Shown piece after piece: positions 15,127 through 62,988 of a stretch of 64,000 nucleotides of DNA. Position numbers and translations under genes: made by a program. Within the stretch, counting starts at the first letter, position 1, and every line of letters begins with the position of its first letter. The stretch comes from Polynucleobacter sp. AP-Latsch-80-C2 (lineage in GTDB: Bacteria; Pseudomonadota; Gammaproteobacteria; Burkholderiales; Burkholderiaceae), in assembly GCF_018882185.1 (NCBI RefSeq), contig NZ_JACVOY010000008.1, positions 62,001 to 126,000 on the forward strand, given 5' to 3'. The notes beneath the pieces were generated by a model. The model was not told where the DNA came from and searched no databases. It saw only the letters and a program-made list of their open reading frames with translations.

Positions 15127-15534
15127 ATGCCAAAGCAAAAAGATCTTATTGAGCTCAGTTATCTGAGCGTGGCAGTTTCAGATATGTCCTTCTTGGGGCT
15201 GATGCGCCTATTGGAGGCTGCTAGAGCTTTTAATCAAAAGCATGGGATTACTGGCATATTGTTCTATGACAACCAAGAGTTTGGACAGGTCATTGAAGGC
15301 GAGCGCACGAGTGTGATGAAGGTTTGGAAGCGCATTCAGGATGATAAGCGGCATCACCGCATTGAGCTATTAGAAATTCGTGACATTACCGAGCATACCT
15401 ATCCTGATTGGCTATTGCGCTTTTACGGTGGCGAAAGCTTGACCAAGGACTATCCCGCCTTAGCTCAAATGGTTGGAGGGATGGATAAGTTCAGTCTGGC
15501 CTTATTAAATAAGATGCGCGAGACAGAACGTTGA
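15127..15534 (+). CDS. BLUF-domain blue-light sensor protein
   Basis: A 135-residue stand-alone BLUF protein. Aligned by a constant offset of 9 to AppA, the flavin-network residues are all kept: Y12 (AppA Y21) in ELSYLS, N36 (N45) in FNQKHGITG, Q54 (Q63) in EFGQVIEG and W95 (W104) in PDWLLRF. The semi-conserved methionine (AppA M106) is Leu97. BLUF domains bind FAD and change hydrogen bonding at this Gln in blue light. With no output domain it must signal through a partner protein. It lies 56 bases upstream of msrP and may share a transcript with it. Confidence 0.93.
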   Translation: MPKQKDLIELSYLSVAVSDMSFLGLMRLLEAARAFNQKHGITGILFYDNQEFGQVIEGERTSVMKVWKRIQDDKRHHRIELLEIRDITEHTYPDWLLRFYGGESLTKDYPALAQMVGGMDKFSLALLNKMRETER

Positions 15535-58253: not shown

Positions 58254-58934
58254 ATGACTGATACAAGTAAATCAAATCAATTTATAGAACGAGCCAAAAA
58301 ACTCGATTGCGCAGCGATTAGTGATGCGCTCGATCGTTCAGGAATAGCAGGGCAGTGTTACAAGATTGCCGCTTGTGACCCTAAATTTAGGATGGTGGGC
58401 CATGCCTATACTGTTTTATATCGCCTTGCCAATCCTGATGAAGAAGGTAATGTAGGCGAATACATCGATGATGTTCCTCCTGGTAATGTGATTGTGATTG
58501 ACAATCAGGGGCGCGATGACATGACTACCTGGGGCAATATCTTGACGGAGATGGCCCATCAAAGAAAGGTAGCGGGTACCGTTATTGACGGCATCAATCG
58601 GGATGTCTCTTTATGCCGAGAATTAAATTACCCTATCTATAGCAGCGGCTATTGGATGAGAACTGGCAAGGGCAGAATTCAGTTGGTCGGCTTGCAGGTG
58701 CCTGTAAAAATTGGCGGAGTTTCAGTAAATCCAGGCGACTTAGTGTGTGGCGATCCTGATGGCGTAGTGGTAGTTCCTAGTCAGATGCAAGAACAAGTAT
58801 TGACCTATGCAGAAGAGATCGTTGGCAGAGAAAACCAAGTGAGAAAAAGTATTCGCGAAGGAATGCGGATGGATGAGGCAAGAAAGCTGCAAAAGTATCA
58901 TTTCTTACAAAGCCAGGACTACGATAGGAAATAA
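58254..58934 (+). CDS. RraA-like (HMG/CHA aldolase family) protein
   Basis: A 226-residue protein of the RraA/LigK fold. Family motifs are AAISDALDRSG near residue 16, WGNILTEMAHQ, and VIDGINRDV with the Arg-Asp pair that binds substrate and metal in aldolases, then GDPDGVVVVP. Keeping the aldolase residues favours class II pyruvate aldolase or oxaloacetate decarboxylase activity (LigK type) over the RNase E inhibitor RraA. It is the last gene of the 20.9-kb rightward run and converges on the HNH gene. Confidence 0.88.
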   Translation: MTDTSKSNQFIERAKKLDCAAISDALDRSGIAGQCYKIAACDPKFRMVGHAYTVLYRLANPDEEGNVGEYIDDVPPGNVIVIDNQGRDDMTTWGNILTEMAHQRKVAGTVIDGINRDVSLCRELNYPIYSSGYWMRTGKGRIQLVGLQVPVKIGGVSVNPGDLVCGDPDGVVVVPSQMQEQVLTYAEEIVGRENQVRKSIREGMRMDEARKLQKYHFLQSQDYDRK

Positions 58935-58940
58935 TTTTTC

Positions 58941-59243
58941 TTAATTGCTTCGTAAGCGAGTACTTTTCCTCACTCTTTCATAGAAGCTATTGGGTTTCGT
59001 TTTAACCCATTGAGTAAATTTTTTCATCTCAGGATGCTCCCTCAGAATGGCCGCATGATTTAGTTTGGTAGCCAATTCTGTTTCGGTGAATAAGGCATGA
59101 ATTTGCTTATGGCAGATGCGATGTAGGTATTCAGTAGCTCTACCACCCTTGGATTTTGGGATGAGATGATGCGCATCCTTTTGGGAGTCCGGAATTGCGC
59201 GATCACAGATAGGGCAAATGAGCGCAAGCTCTTTTTTCGCCAT
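58941..59243 (-). CDS. HNH endonuclease domain protein
   Basis: About 100 residues from the ATG at 59243 (MAKKEL); an ATG 15 codons upstream at 59288 is possible. An HNH/McrA fold is seen as CPICDRAIPD, DAHHLIPKSKGGRA and LHRICHKQIHALF: the CxxC, the catalytic HH, and a zinc Cys-His. The family includes YajD-like nucleases and recombination-linked proteins. It is alone, divergent from the photolyase cluster, and not clearly part of a restriction system. Confidence 0.85.
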   Translation of the reverse strand: MAKKELALICPICDRAIPDSQKDAHHLIPKSKGGRATEYLHRICHKQIHALFTETELATKLNHAAILREHPEMKKFTQWVKTKPNSFYERVRKSTRLRSN

Positions 59244-59337
59244 TGGTGCTTCTAGAGCAATCTGTTTTTGCCGTATTTTGCCAAGCATCTGTTTTATCTA
59301 TACATCAATACTGACCACAAAATGAGGTGGCATGGGG

Positions 59338-59377
59338 TTCTGCTAGTTTAGTAAATAAGCCTTAAACTTGCTGGGTG
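59338..59377 (+). promoter_or_regulatory. Repeated 40-base start-site element, copy A
   Basis: This stretch ends with the GTG start (59375-59377) of the DUF2805 gene and matches 62085-62124 at 33 of 40 bases with no gap. Inside it AGTTTA (59345-59350), 12 bases, TAAACT (59363-59368) forms a perfect dyad. The region has no Shine-Dalgarno. The likely reading is a shared operator/promoter with a leaderless or very short-leader mRNA. Confidence 0.65.
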
Positions 59378-59644
59378 CCAAAATCCCTTGCTAAATCCCT
59401 TCTAGATTCAGAGGTATCGCGCCTAATAGAAATGGCTTGGGAGGATCGTACCCCATTTGATGCCATTGAAAAATCGTTTGGCTTATCTGAATCTCAAGTC
59501 ATTGAATTAATGCGCAGTCAGTTAAAACGTTCCTCGTTTGAACTCTGGAGAAAAAGAGTCACGGGAAGGGCGACCAAACATAGTGCCTTACGCAGTAAAG
59601 AGGTTCAACGAGCCTATTGCCCAACACAATACAAAAGTAAATGA
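59375..59644 (+). CDS. DUF2805/TIGR03643 family protein
   Basis: An 89-residue protein with GTG start. The family pattern EVSRLIEMAWEDRTPFDAIEKSFGLSE and FELWRKRVTGRATKHSALR is unmistakable. It looks like a helix-turn-helix (AIEKSFGLSESQVIELMR), so DNA binding is plausible. The family is repeatedly found next to FeS-type photolyases. It overlaps the photolyase gene by 4 bases (ATGA). A 40-base repeated element directly precedes the GTG. Confidence 0.9.
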   Translation: MPKSLAKSLLDSEVSRLIEMAWEDRTPFDAIEKSFGLSESQVIELMRSQLKRSSFELWRKRVTGRATKHSALRSKEVQRAYCPTQYKSK

Positions 59645-61179
59645 AGGCAGTGACTAGGCTAATATTGATTCTTGGGGATCAATTAGATCTCCAGAGCGCC
59701 GCCTTAAAGGGCTTTAGACGTGAGACTGATGAGATCATCATGATCGAGTCGGCTAACGAGGCTCAATATGTATGGTCCCATAAAGCAAAGATCGCTTTAT
59801 TTTTGTCGGCTATGCGGCACTTTGACAAGAGCCTTAAAGATCAGAAATACCCGCTGACCTATATCCAGGAGTCTTCTTTATCCATCATTGAGGTGTTAAG
59901 AGAGCAGATTCTTCAAAAGAAAATAAGTCATTTAGTGTGTATCGAACCGGGCGAGTGGCGTCTCAAGCAATCAATCGAGGACCTGGCTACAGAGCTAAAG
60001 ATAAAGCTCGAAATTCTGGAGGATGAGCATTTTTACTGCAGCCCTCAAGAGTTTAAAAAATGGGTGGCCGATAAAAAAGAAATCAGGTTGGAGTATTTTT
60101 ACCGCCTCATGCGCAAGACTCACAATATCTTGATGGACAAAGATGGTAACCCTGAGGGTGGGCAATGGAACTTCGATCAAGACAATCGAAAGCCTTATCC
60201 CAAAAAGGGTCCTGGACTCATTGATGCGCCGAAGCGTTTTGAGCCCGACGAGATTACACAAGCAGTATTGGGATTTGTTGAGAAGACTTACAAAAACCAT
60301 CCCGGCTCATTAGAAAGCTTCAACTGGGCGGTAACCAGAGAGCAGGCCTTGGAAGCATTGCAATACTTTGTTGAATATCGCCTCCGAAACTTTGGAATGT
60401 ATCAAGATGCTATGTGGATTGATACACCCTTCGGCTGGCACTCCATCATCTCCAGCGCGCTTAATTTGAAGCTCTTAAATCCCCGGGAAGTGATTTCAGC
60501 AGTATTACTTGCTTGGAAAAAAGACGCTTCTCTTGAGCTTTCCAGTATTGAGGGATTTATTCGGCAAATATTGGGCTGGAGAGAGTTTGTTAGGGGGATG
60601 TATTACCTCGATATGCCTCAGATGGCACTAGATAATTTCTATGAGCATCAACGCGCCCTTCCAAAATGGTATTGGACTGGCCAAACCCAGATGGCCTGTA
60701 TGCAAGACGCCGTTGGTCAAACCTTAAAGTATGGCTATGCACACCATATTCAGCGCTTAATGGTGACAGGCAACTTCGCACTCTTAGCAGAAATATTACC
60801 TAGCCAGGTATGTGATTGGTACCTGGCTGTTTATGTGGATGCGATTGAGTGGGTAGAGTTACCTAATACCGCTGGAATGGCTTTGTTTGCAAATGGCGGA
60901 CGCTTTACCAGTAAGCCCTACATCGCTAGTGGTGCCTATATCAAGCGTATGAGTAATTATTGCGGCACGTGTAAATACAAGCCTGATATCCGCTTCGGTG
61001 AATCTGCTTGTCCAGTGACCACTTTGTATTGGAATTTCTTAATCAAGCATCGCACCCAGTTTGAATCTAGTCCACGCACGAGATTAATGACAGCGAATTT
61101 AAAGAGAATTAGTGATTCTGATCAGTTGGCCATACAAGCGCATGCACAAACCATCCTAAACAACTTGGATGCTCTGTAG
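59641..61179 (+). CDS. phrB: FeS-type cryptochrome/(6-4) photolyase (FeS-BCP, PhrB-like)
   Basis: A 512-residue protein of the DASH-unrelated FeS-BCP branch. It opens LILILGDQLDLQSAALKG and has the FAD-binding region LGWREFVRGMYYLDMP. Four cysteines fit the [4Fe-4S] site: one in TGQTQMACMQDAVG-type helix (near residue 355) and three in SNYCGTCKYKPDIRFGESACP. Members repair (6-4) photoproducts with blue light and may also sense light. It is coupled to the DUF2805 gene, and a DUF2256 gene starts directly after its stop. Confidence 0.93.
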   Translation: MKAVTRLILILGDQLDLQSAALKGFRRETDEIIMIESANEAQYVWSHKAKIALFLSAMRHFDKSLKDQKYPLTYIQESSLSIIEVLREQILQKKISHLVCIEPGEWRLKQSIEDLATELKIKLEILEDEHFYCSPQEFKKWVADKKEIRLEYFYRLMRKTHNILMDKDGNPEGGQWNFDQDNRKPYPKKGPGLIDAPKRFEPDEITQAVLGFVEKTYKNHPGSLESFNWAVTREQALEALQYFVEYRLRNFGMYQDAMWIDTPFGWHSIISSALNLKLLNPREVISAVLLAWKKDASLELSSIEGFIRQILGWREFVRGMYYLDMPQMALDNFYEHQRALPKWYWTGQTQMACMQDAVGQTLKYGYAHHIQRLMVTGNFALLAEILPSQVCDWYLAVYVDAIEWVELPNTAGMALFANGGRFTSKPYIASGAYIKRMSNYCGTCKYKPDIRFGESACPVTTLYWNFLIKHRTQFESSPRTRLMTANLKRISDSDQLAIQAHAQTILNNLDAL

Positions 61180-61350
61180 GTGAAAGAAAAATCATCTACC
61201 TTTAAAGGCAACAAAAGCTTTTTACCAAGTAAACCCTGCGTTGTCTGTAACAAAGAGATGACCTGGAGAAAATCTTGGGAAAAAAATTGGGAGTCGGTAA
61301 AGTACTGCTCAGACGCCTGCAGGAAAAAAGCTCCTAAGACGACTTTATAA
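61180..61350 (+). CDS. DUF2256 family zinc-ribbon-like small protein
   Basis: A 56-residue protein starting at GTG 61180, directly behind the photolyase stop TAG. It reads KGNKSFLPSKPCVVCNK, then EMTWRKSWEKNWESVKYC and SDACR. The four cysteines in two CxxC-like pairs (PCVVC, YCSDAC) match the DUF2256 pattern, probably one zinc. The family is almost always encoded beside FeS-type photolyases and DUF2805 proteins. The function is unknown. This gene is short and easily missed. Confidence 0.9.
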   Translation: MKEKSSTFKGNKSFLPSKPCVVCNKEMTWRKSWEKNWESVKYCSDACRKKAPKTTL

Positions 61351-61363
61351 AAGGGAGCTTAGG

Positions 61364-62059
61364 TTACCAAGGTAATCGCTCACCCGAGTAAGCGATGAAA
61401 GTCCCTGAATCTTCTTTGTTAAGACTTTCAATCACGCGAAGCATATCGCTTGCAGCATCAAGAGGTGGCCTGCCAATCTGCTCTCCCCGAAAAGGTTGAG
61501 ATAGTCTTGAATTTACTGTGCCGGGATGTATAGCAACAAGCGCGGTATTGGGTTTTGTTCTGGCAAATTCAATTGCTGCTGTTTTAATTAACATGTTGAG
61601 CGCTGCTTTAGAAGCGCGGTAGCTATACCAACCCCCAAGGCGATTGTCTTCAATGCTGCCAACTTTAGCCGAGAGGCTAGCCATAATGCTATTTTGTGGA
61701 TCCAGCAACTTGGAAAAGTGCTTAATAGTTAAGACGGGGCCAATCGCATTGATCTTCATGAGATCCATGAGTTGATCTGAGTTGATGTCTTCTAATCTTT
61801 TTTCGGGCATCCAGTCAGCAGTATGTAATACCCCAATCGTATTAATAATGAGCTGAAAAGGACCCTGCGAGGTAAGTGCTGTAGCAGCTGCTTCAATAGA
61901 CTCAGGCTGCTGGTAATCGATCGGAATCTCAGAGTGTCGGTGTAAGCCAATGACGCTCGTGCAGCCAGGATTGCTTTGTAAAAGCGCCATAAAGGCTGAT
62001 CCGATGGTGCCAGAAGAGCCAATGATGAGGGCGTTAAAGGGTTGGGATAACAGTGCCAT
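61364..62059 (-). CDS. SDR-family oxidoreductase (C-factor-like)
   Basis: A 231-residue SDR. The cofactor motif IIGSSGTIGSAF is near residue 12, the catalytic Ser is in MASLSAKVGS and YRASK holds Tyr and Lys. LVAIHPGTVNSRLSQPFRG follows, as in CsgA-type SDRs found in photolyase/LitR-type clusters. It converges on the DUF2256 gene with 13 bases between the stops and is divergent from the DCC-type gene. The intergenic region holds the second 40-base repeat element, so it could be coregulated. The substrate is not known. Confidence 0.9.
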   Translation of the reverse strand: MALLSQPFNALIIGSSGTIGSAFMALLQSNPGCTSVIGLHRHSEIPIDYQQPESIEAAATALTSQGPFQLIINTIGVLHTADWMPEKRLEDINSDQLMDLMKINAIGPVLTIKHFSKLLDPQNSIMASLSAKVGSIEDNRLGGWYSYRASKAALNMLIKTAAIEFARTKPNTALVAIHPGTVNSRLSQPFRGEQIGRPPLDAASDMLRVIESLNKEDSGTFIAYSGERLPW

Positions 62060-62084
62060 AAGCTCTTTTAGTAAAGTAGGTGTC

Positions 62085-62124
62085 TTCAGCTAGTTTATTG
62101 AATAAGTCTTAAACTTACCTGGTG
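62085..62124 (+). promoter_or_regulatory. Repeated 40-base start-site element, copy B
   Basis: The element ends with the GTG start (62122-62124) of the DCC-type gene. Arms AGTTTA (62092-62097) and TAAACT (62110-62115) are identical to copy A in sequence, spacing and distance to the GTG (7-base gap from TAAACT). Differences fall only at seven positions outside the arms. Confidence 0.65.
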
Positions 62125-62535
62125 AGCCAACAATTGCAAAAACTAAGCCTCTTTTACGACGGTGCCTGTCCATTATGTCAGGCAGAGATTCTATTTTTGT
62201 CTGGGCGTAACCAGAATCAGTTGCTAGAATTTATTGATATCAATTCTGCAAAATATGATCCTTTGAAGGTGGGAGTTTCATGTGAAGAGGCGTTGGCGGC
62301 CATGTATGGCCAATATGCCGATGGCACGCTGATTAATGGGGTTGCTGTTTTTCCAGCAGCTTATCAAAGAGCTAACTTGCCAAAACTGGCTTGGGTCTTT
62401 TCAAGAAAATCTTTGCAGCCAATGCTGCAAATAGGATATCGATTTTTTGCCAAGAACAGACATGCAATTTCTGGGTTACTAGGACCAGGAGCGCTTTGGT
62501 TAGTCAAATCCACAAGATTAAAAACGAATCAATAG
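62122..62535 (+). CDS. DUF393 thiol-disulfide oxidoreductase-like (DCC) protein
   Basis: A 137-residue protein with GTG start. The family motif YDGACPLCQAE (CxxC with preceding D) is at about 13-23, as in DCC proteins; then FIDINSAKYDPLK and RYGQ-type helices follow. A hydrophobic end (LLGPGALWLVKS) may contact membrane. The DCC family has a thioredoxin-like fold and often lies in photolyase or light-induced gene clusters. The 40-base repeated element directly precedes the start. It is followed by DUF2452 after 24 bases. Confidence 0.88.
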   Translation: MSQQLQKLSLFYDGACPLCQAEILFLSGRNQNQLLEFIDINSAKYDPLKVGVSCEEALAAMYGQYADGTLINGVAVFPAAYQRANLPKLAWVFSRKSLQPMLQIGYRFFAKNRHAISGLLGPGALWLVKSTRLKTNQ

Positions 62536-62559
62536 CGCATTCAAGAATTAGGAGTTAAG

Positions 62560-62988
62560 GTGAGAATAGAAGACAAAGATCCAGCAAGACATGCTGGCAT
62601 TGAGTACCCAATGGAGGTTGGTGCCCCCGTTTTTGCGCCAATTAAAGTGGTTGAGGAAAAAGACAAGGCCGTCAATGTCGCCAGACAAAATGCGAAGCTT
62701 GAATACGATCGCATCATGGAGCAAGCCGAAGTATTGATGAAGCAAGCAAGAGCTTTGCAAGCAAGGCTAGACGCTACTGAAATGGTCCATTGCGCTAAGT
62801 TTGGCTTTAATCCTATCCATGGAAAGATCTATCACCTCTATTACGATGAGCGCAATCAGATCAATGTCTTGATTCAAAATGGCCCCCAGGGTTGGAGTTG
62901 CGGAATTCCCGATGGCTGGAATTATTTGATGGCTGTCAAAAAGTTAGGTGATAGCACTTGGGCGGTGATCGAAGAAGATGAGGTCTAG
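62560..62988 (+). CDS. DUF2452 family protein
   Basis: A 142-residue protein starting at GTG 62560 with AGGAG 5-6 bases upstream. It has a coiled-coil-like centre (ARQNAKLEYDRIMEQAEVLMKQARALQARLDATE, in part) and a C-terminal beta-rich domain (FNPIHGKIYHLYYDERNQINVL, GWSCGIPDGWNYLMAVKKLGDSTW). This is typical of DUF2452, a family of unknown function that occurs with photolyase-related genes. It shares a transcript with the DCC-type gene and converges on the nitroreductase gene with a 7-base gap. Confidence 0.85.
   Translation: MRIEDKDPARHAGIEYPMEVGAPVFAPIKVVEEKDKAVNVARQNAKLEYDRIMEQAEVLMKQARALQARLDATEMVHCAKFGFNPIHGKIYHLYYDERNQINVLIQNGPQGWSCGIPDGWNYLMAVKKLGDSTWAVIEEDEV

Follow-up and report, generated by a model that had tools for sequence, protein, structure and literature searches.

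The window analysed here, a 64,000-nucleotide stretch of Polynucleobacter sp. AP-Latsch-80-C2 (contig NZ_JACVOY010000008.1, positions 62,001 to 126,000 of the forward strand; positions below are counted from its first letter), contains two near-identical 40-base segments, each ending at the start codon of a gene in a photolyase cluster. From sequence comparison we consider the element they share to be probably the promoter–operator of a very small photodamage regulon, with leaderless starts and a sequence-specific regulator; its transcription start, the binding of the regulator and the light or photodamage signal are those we infer below. Positions 59338–59377 and 62085–62124 are identical at 33 of 40 bases without gaps, and the runner-up gapless match to either 40-mer, across the whole window and both strands, reaches 24 of 40. 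Judged by base composition, a 33/40 match has a probability of ∼5e-14 per pair and ∼1e-4 across all same-strand pairs in the window. The dyad AGTTTA-N12-TAAACT is perfect in both copies (59345–59368 and 62092–62115) and a GTG closes each 40-mer, that of the DUF2805 gene at 59375 and that of the DCC gene at 62122, so that the match, dyad and GTG ends described in an earlier sequence-only reading were all reproduced at both places. The copies and the genes around them are as follows.

59340..59371, plus strand: element copy 1, 32 bp, of the CAGCnAGTTTAkTnAATAAGyCTTAAACTTGC type, before DUF2805
59345..59350, no strand: left dyad arm AGTTTA of copy 1; its minus-strand reading, TAAACT, is a possible −10 box for the divergent HNH gene
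59363..59368, plus strand: right dyad arm TAAACT of copy 1, predicted −10 box, with an in-frame TAA four codons ahead of the start
59375..59644, plus strand: DUF2805 (TIGR03643) gene, GTG start 6 bp past the right arm, predicted leaderless
59641..61179, plus strand: deoxyribodipyrimidine photolyase-related protein (PF04244, DPRP)
61180..61350, plus strand: DUF2256 protein, third gene of the operon
62087..62118, plus strand: element copy 2, before the DCC gene
62092..62097, no strand: left dyad arm AGTTTA of copy 2, toward the divergent SDR gene
62110..62115, plus strand: right dyad arm TAAACT of copy 2, predicted −10 box
62122..62535, plus strand: DCC1-like thiol-disulfide oxidoreductase (PF04134), GTG start 6 bp past the right arm
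62560..62988, plus strand: DUF2452 gene downstream of DCC, with a Shine–Dalgarno sequence, likely in the same operon
61364..62059, minus strand: SDR family oxidoreductase, divergent from DCC over copy 2
58941..59288, minus strand: HNH-type protein, divergent from DUF2805 over copy 1

Exact copies of the dyad number three in the organism's own genome (2.53 Mb, 59 contigs), and the same pattern read backwards occurs at one place. The third copy (C57:7320-7343, minus strand) lies ahead of a chalcone-isomerase-like/DUF3833 pair, which in this genome is apart from DCC, each having its own element; in several other genomes DCC, the chalcone-isomerase-like gene and DUF3833 are joined. A further own-genome site with three mismatches (L034) is at chance level (control 1; model E 0.12).

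Searching the genome and its relatives for the dyad with its flanks showed it to be genus-wide, at the same few genes. A strict motif of 20 fixed bases was present in 110 of 186 Polynucleobacter genomes, with no occurrence of the reversed-pattern control in any of them, and when one mismatch was allowed the motif was found in 49 of 61 Polynucleobacter genomes compared with 0 of 337 genomes of other genera in the family. Scanning the GTDB collection (84,980 species) returned 71 stretches, whose titles were in every case Polynucleobacter or beta-proteobacterial/Burkholderiaceae bins. We also built a sequence model of the element from 47 of the 84 distinct 33-nucleotide sites, hand-chosen for diversity, and searched 48 genomes of the genus under stricter filters; 30 of the 48 had sites at E < 1e-4, one to three each and 57 in total. 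Below that cut-off came a second site in genome G123 (1.3e-4) and one site in each of two other genomes (∼1e-3), the remaining matches listed being at 0.005 or above. Sites were deduplicated by exact sequence only, and all counts ignore relatedness. No relative was confirmed among viral contigs. The DUF2805 query, which matched 167 of the 186 genomes of the genus, found no match in 45 genomes of other Burkholderiaceae genera, a comparison that had no positive control.

The element precedes a narrow set of genes. Loci L001–L105 hold 98 distinct sites with no more than two mismatches, all of which stand before DUF2805 (62), DCC (31), a chalcone-isomerase-like gene (3) or the photolyase directly (2). 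These sites were found by the motif, only part of the places holding the 20-base motif having been opened, and so the fixed columns of this set are biased. A hand tally of the 57 strong model sites gave 26 DUF2805, 24 DCC, three chalcone-isomerase-like and two photolyase genes, 55 in all. Absence from the orthologous genes of relatives, or placement at random, was thus not what we observed, with 98 of 98 and 55 of 57 sites at the same genes, and this genus-wide conservation lends support to the proposal of a small-regulon operator or promoter. It also bears on the idea that the element is a mobile or random repeat devoid of function, for which the near-identical copies within one genome might speak; since carrying genomes hold only one to three strong copies, nearly always at the same genes and in the same register, and the flanks upstream of −5 are poorly conserved, we give that idea virtually no credence.

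A test from the protein side, which is free of motif bias, gave the same picture. All 45 DUF2805 genes adjoining a photolyase in loci L106–L175 carry the element with at most 5 of 20 changes. Among them are the 30 matches closest to the DUF2805 protein of the window (L106–L135), every one of which has a photolyase next to it and carries the element (exact in 15, with one or two changes in 14 and with three to five in one). The other 40 loci (L136–L175) were hand-picked, mostly for genomes without the exact motif; here 15 of 15 DUF2805 genes beside a photolyase have the element with one to five changes, 12 of them in genomes that have no exact motif, and 17 of 21 without an adjacent photolyase have none, the other four, from a distant lineage, carrying a variant with three to five changes. 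In one lineage (L147, L149 and L150), DCC genes with no photolyase at the locus have a related but different palindrome, sGCTTTATTAATAAGCCTTAATATA, at the same place.

The element can outlast the gene that it precedes. A profile search found no DUF2805 in genomes G034 (99% complete, one contig), G117 (99%) and G065 (100%), all three of which keep the element. In G034 the element and its GTG continue in frame into the photolyase, and in both G034 and G117 the start codon before the photolyase keeps the same register to the element. In G117 a mini-open reading frame (ORF), MPKFCVN, is left between the element and the photolyase, and at a second site, with three changes, another (MSLVINL) comes next and is followed by DUF2452; at each of these places (L313, 5244-5330 and 6864-6960) the element is thus followed by a seven-codon mini-ORF where DUF2805 or DCC is gone. 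G065 retains the site of the DCC–chalcone-isomerase-like–DUF3833 genes with one change. In G010 (L329, 2105-2128, minus strand) it is DCC that has been lost; the SDR gene is still divergent and the right arm reads TAAACC. Two minor observations concern these loci: the G034 photolyase (L312, 3693-5185) was matched as two overlapping tblastn pieces, possibly a frameshift, and an alternative-oxidase-like frame, read by eye, lies ∼140 nucleotides beyond the DCC-less element of G010.

We propose that the element would be a promoter fused with an operator. The right arm TAAACT, generally TANANT, would be the −10 box in a promoter of the sigma70 type without a consensus −35, and transcription would start at the first base of the ATG or GTG 6 bases on, yielding leaderless DUF2805–photolyase–DUF2256 and DCC mRNAs. 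The upstream block GCnAGTTTAkTnAATAAGnC, at about −33 to −14 with the start codon as +1, would be bound by a sequence-specific regulator, and because this block overlaps the promoter the regulator would be one of two kinds: a repressor that light or photo-oxidative stress releases, or a MerR-like activator that binds the spacer. A regulator shared in this way by one to three promoters per genome would define a very small regulon. A light or photo-oxidative role is suggested by the kinds of gene present and by a sister clade in which LitR adjoins a photolyase of this family. Induction by light is a classic property of photolyase genes.

The anatomy of the element fits such a promoter. Conservation spans −5 to +26 around the left arm, that is, the 32-bp consensus given above, and the arms extend to 9 bp (GCnAGTTTA and TAAACTnGC), with their centres 21 bp apart. 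DUF2805 sites have a right arm in which hexamer positions 1, 2, 4 and 6 (columns 18, 19, 21 and 23) are 100% fixed and variation is confined to positions 3 and 5 (columns 20 and 22), giving TAAACT, TACACT or TAAAAT; such variation is what a sigma70 −10 hexamer tolerates, and TANANT is present in all of these sites. An RTG (R, A or G) lies exactly 6 nucleotides past the right arm in 89 of 93 DUF2805 sites (53 GTG, 36 ATG) and in 19 of 41 DCC sites, many other DCC genes having an ATG 3 nucleotides later. The 6 bp between the right arm and the start codon equal the spacing of a −10 box from +1, which makes a leaderless message likely. TAAACT holds an in-frame TAA, which closes the reading frame four codons before the start; the open frames of DUF2805 are mostly 92 long and the protein has 89 residues. 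The chalcone-isomerase-like genes start 51–55 nucleotides past the element, and the one in the own genome has AGGA before its ATG.

We tested for ribosome-binding sites using only those tblastn matches that start within the first three residues at ATG, GTG or TTG. Pairing with the anti-Shine–Dalgarno sequence at −4 kcal/mol or better was seen in 0 of 59 distinct DUF2805 upstream regions and 0 of 16 DCC upstream regions, and 81% of 32 DUF2452 upstream regions, the control, paired (42% after shuffling). The sequence-only reading had noted the missing Shine–Dalgarno at the two window genes, which these counts extend, and its suggestion of leaderless mRNAs fits the geometry of a −10-like TANANT, 6 bp and a start codon. 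On this arrangement we predict that the DUF2805–photolyase–DUF2256 and DCC messages are likely leaderless. Leaderless promoters characteristically place the −10 box about 7 bases ahead of the start codon; the element genes likewise have a fixed −10-to-start distance and no Shine–Dalgarno, but the element adds a 32-bp conserved regulatory block that is common to unrelated genes. Rfam returned no family in 58900–62600, and predicted RNA folding at the two copies was unremarkable (z 0.52 and −0.04).

Several observations weigh against our proposal. A consensus scan gives no sigma70 promoter at either copy, and hence a −35 is lacking, the TTGACA position being occupied by CAGCnA or weaker. Nine per cent of DCC sites carry T at hexamer position 4, a TAATAT lineage, so TANANT has exceptions. 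The missing Shine–Dalgarno is not peculiar to the element genes, the HNH and photolyase starts here lacking one as well. Two of the strong model sites, the second of G117 and a third in G010, precede none of the usual genes. Among the regulator families searched, which did not include ECF (extracytoplasmic function) sigma genes, none was seen to co-occur with the element. Finally, although 65 of the 84 distinct sites have both arms perfect, the 19 with altered arms (12 in one arm, 7 in both) restore symmetry in no case, and because changed arms are never compensated a purely symmetric operator is uncertain. The symmetry may reflect a dimeric regulator, two outward-facing −10 boxes, or both.

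The second of these sources, taken alone, would make the element a bidirectional promoter in which each arm is an outward −10 box, the right one serving the leaderless gene and the left one a divergent HNH, SDR or DUF2237 gene, the dyad being two −10 boxes with no dimer site. Divergent HNH, SDR or DUF2237 genes start within 80 bp at 133 of 140 distinct sites (six of the remaining seven have no recognised divergent gene and one is at a locus edge), and 75 of these 133 start at 28–32 bp from the left arm; in the distant lineage three of the four loci have an unrelated divergent ORF, at 28–29 bp. In DUF2805 sites the left arm, taken on the minus strand, varies most at hexamer positions 3 and 5, like the right arm, but this pattern is missing from that arm at DCC sites. 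An altered left arm is commoner where no divergent gene was found (4/7 compared with 10/136; Fisher p 0.002, with kinship ignored and the four distant-lineage loci counted among the sites that have a divergent gene). The G010 element, which faces SDR but no longer DCC, has an intact left arm, and its right-arm −10 has lost the final T. However, HNH start distances range widely (11–72 bp), HNH is kept at 63–64 bp at three sites and SDR at another three despite an altered left arm, and most divergent starts are without a good Shine–Dalgarno. Moreover, the middle of the element is conserved as well as its arms, which two promoters alone would not need. We therefore regard a bidirectional promoter with no regulator dimer site as somewhat unlikely. 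In many loci the gene divergent from the DCC/chalcone-isomerase-like element is DUF2237 with a histone-deacetylase-family gene (for example L001, 1554-2824).

More speculatively, and we think it rather unlikely in its entirety, these features would combine into a genus-specific photodamage switch that operates where the photolyase is without LitR control: a symmetric 32-bp element with arms acting as outward −10 boxes, leaderless on one side and leadered on the other, through which one regulator would gate one to three sites per genome, and in which the element and start codon can come to serve the next gene once the first is lost.

Which regulator might bind the promoter–operator was approached through known systems. 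In PMC9758184, class II LitR sites are T(G/A)TACA-N12-TGTA(C/T)A, and the LitR-type operators of Pseudomonas PplR1 and PmlR2 overlap the promoter, with photolyase among the targets; PmlR2 Site 1 overlaps the −35. The element shares with these operators the hexamer-N12-hexamer layout over a promoter and a photolyase target, and an operator for a LitR/CarH B12 photoreceptor, LitR being among the binders that the sequence-only reading proposed for testing, is also favoured by a sister clade in which a LitR gene adjoins a photolyase of this family. The hexamers differ, however (AGTTTA/TAAACT compared with TGTACA), and it is the predicted −10 box that the right arm covers, rather than a −35 as at PmlR2 Site 1. 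Nor does the own genome hold a LitR within reach of the MerR model. Its three MerR_1 matches are of 106–132 residues with no B12-binding domain: a 106-residue MerR_2 protein by a DnaJ-like gene, a 116-residue MerR by an HU/IHF-type gene and a 132-residue MerR by a metal ATPase-like gene. LitR-size MerR frames (328–345 residues, > 40 bits) were seen in 9 of 38 genomes; seven of the nine were also searched with the motif model, which gave no site at E < 1e-3 in any. We accordingly give LitR scarcely any weight as the regulator of the element.

All five LitR loci opened (L315–L319) encode MerR and B12-binding domains beside a photolyase 59–67% identical to that of the window, and their best motif match has 5–6 of 20 changes; since these photolyases adjoin LitR without the element, one photolyase family appears to be under two control schemes in the genus. 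FolE2-like and FAD amine oxidase-like genes are neighbours (by Pfam in L315, by eye elsewhere), with DUF1365 in L317, and repeated TTGTCTAGGACA-like words in the intergenic regions may be LitR sites. On an own-genome contig, C10, GTP cyclohydrolase I adjoins glutathione peroxidase (L331, 417-1591, minus strand), gene kinds seen beside the sister-clade LitR. Other MerR candidates were set aside. A short weak MerR match, at first sight distributed like the element, proved to be the MerR_2 protein beside the DnaJ-like gene, which we take to be CbpM. The weak frames of G123 (328 residues) and G021 (288 residues) have MerR_1 and no B12-binding domain, and that of G067 carries, by eye, a methyltransferase-like sequence; further long weak frames, known by length, are of 528–530 residues (G070, G018, G003) and of 305 and 418 residues (G042). 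With regard to the spacer operators of the wider MerR family, the element has a conserved inner block, TTATTnAATAA, that is partly palindromic and has its centre ∼10 bp ahead of the −10 box, where the dyad in a 19–20 bp MerR-type spacer would sit, but it has no consensus −35 there, its outer dyad covers the −10 box, and no MerR was identified as a binder.

DUF3833, chalcone-isomerase-like and photolyase genes are members of RpoE–ChrR (ECF11) regulons elsewhere, and this overlap in target kinds is what would favour the element as a promoter for a singlet-oxygen-responsive ECF sigma factor of that type. The whole spacer of the element is conserved, however, which most ECF promoters do not show. 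The element has no TGATC...CGTA and differs from the V. cholerae ECF consensus given in PMC5241685, TGATC-N16-18-CGTAW. No ChrR-like gene was recognised, by size and domains and with no search for the anti-sigma domain, among the four own-genome matches to Cupin_7 (PF12973). These comprise a 217-residue two-cupin protein (two matches), a 175-residue protein below the cut-off with a signal-peptide-like start, and a fragment with an internal stop, at which no ChrR-size ORF was seen. We judge an ECF promoter very unlikely. As far as tested, LitR and ECF sigma factors with ChrR do not account for photolyase control in most of this freshwater genus.

The literature offers some context. PMC3965437 describes Polynucleobacter necessarius in a humic lake as rising or unaffected under singlet oxygen. 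In the openly licensed papers searched, the words 'Polynucleobacter' and 'leaderless' do not occur together, and among the matches listed no title or abstract describes the element. The proposed promoter–operator suggests that stress genes are translated leaderless in a betaproteobacterium. It also names genes that would act together, DUF2805, the DPRP photolyase, DUF2256, DCC, the chalcone-isomerase-like gene and DUF3833, perhaps with the divergent SDR, HNH and DUF2237 genes, in a regulon small enough for gene-by-gene testing.

DUF2805 had itself been put forward in the sequence-only reading as its own regulator, on account of a helix-turn-helix-like segment. As a small DNA-binding autoregulator it would act on its own gene, DCC and the chalcone-isomerase-like gene. 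It leads the operon, and its AlphaFold model does have a helix-turn-helix-like core (mean pLDDT 68.8; residues 11–60 mostly 79–88), the best structural matches being mostly DNA-binding domains (GcrA Z 5.0, LsrR 4.8, TrpR 4.7). The resemblance is weak, however, these Z values being low and Foldseek giving no match at E 0.001. The three near-complete genomes described above keep the element without DUF2805, and 17 of the 21 DUF2805 genes in L136–L175 that have no photolyase next to them lack the element. The helix-turn-helix likeness survives in weakened form, and the autoregulator we consider very improbable.

An Rrf2 paralog lies near DUF2805 in nine loci of seven genomes; by hand count, some 85 of the 186 genomes have it at E < 1e-60. 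It was rejected as the regulator on the single-contig element genomes G037, G060, G062, G063, G073 and G082, which show only IscR-level hits. The paralog, with a conserved GPNSVF..F..YL tail, is seen in part of the genus, near DUF2805 or on the chalcone-isomerase contig in L237 (G000:C57:77085-77657), L018, L111, L120, L134, L147 and L150. BLUF proteins do not discriminate either, being near universal (46 of 51 genomes of the genus). The regulator may yet be among the proteins that are universal or nearly so, for example IscR or the MerR next to the HU/IHF-type gene, and the element would be a natural bait for isolating it. A BLUF blue-light sensor protein of 135 residues is encoded within the window itself, at 15127–15531 on the plus strand.

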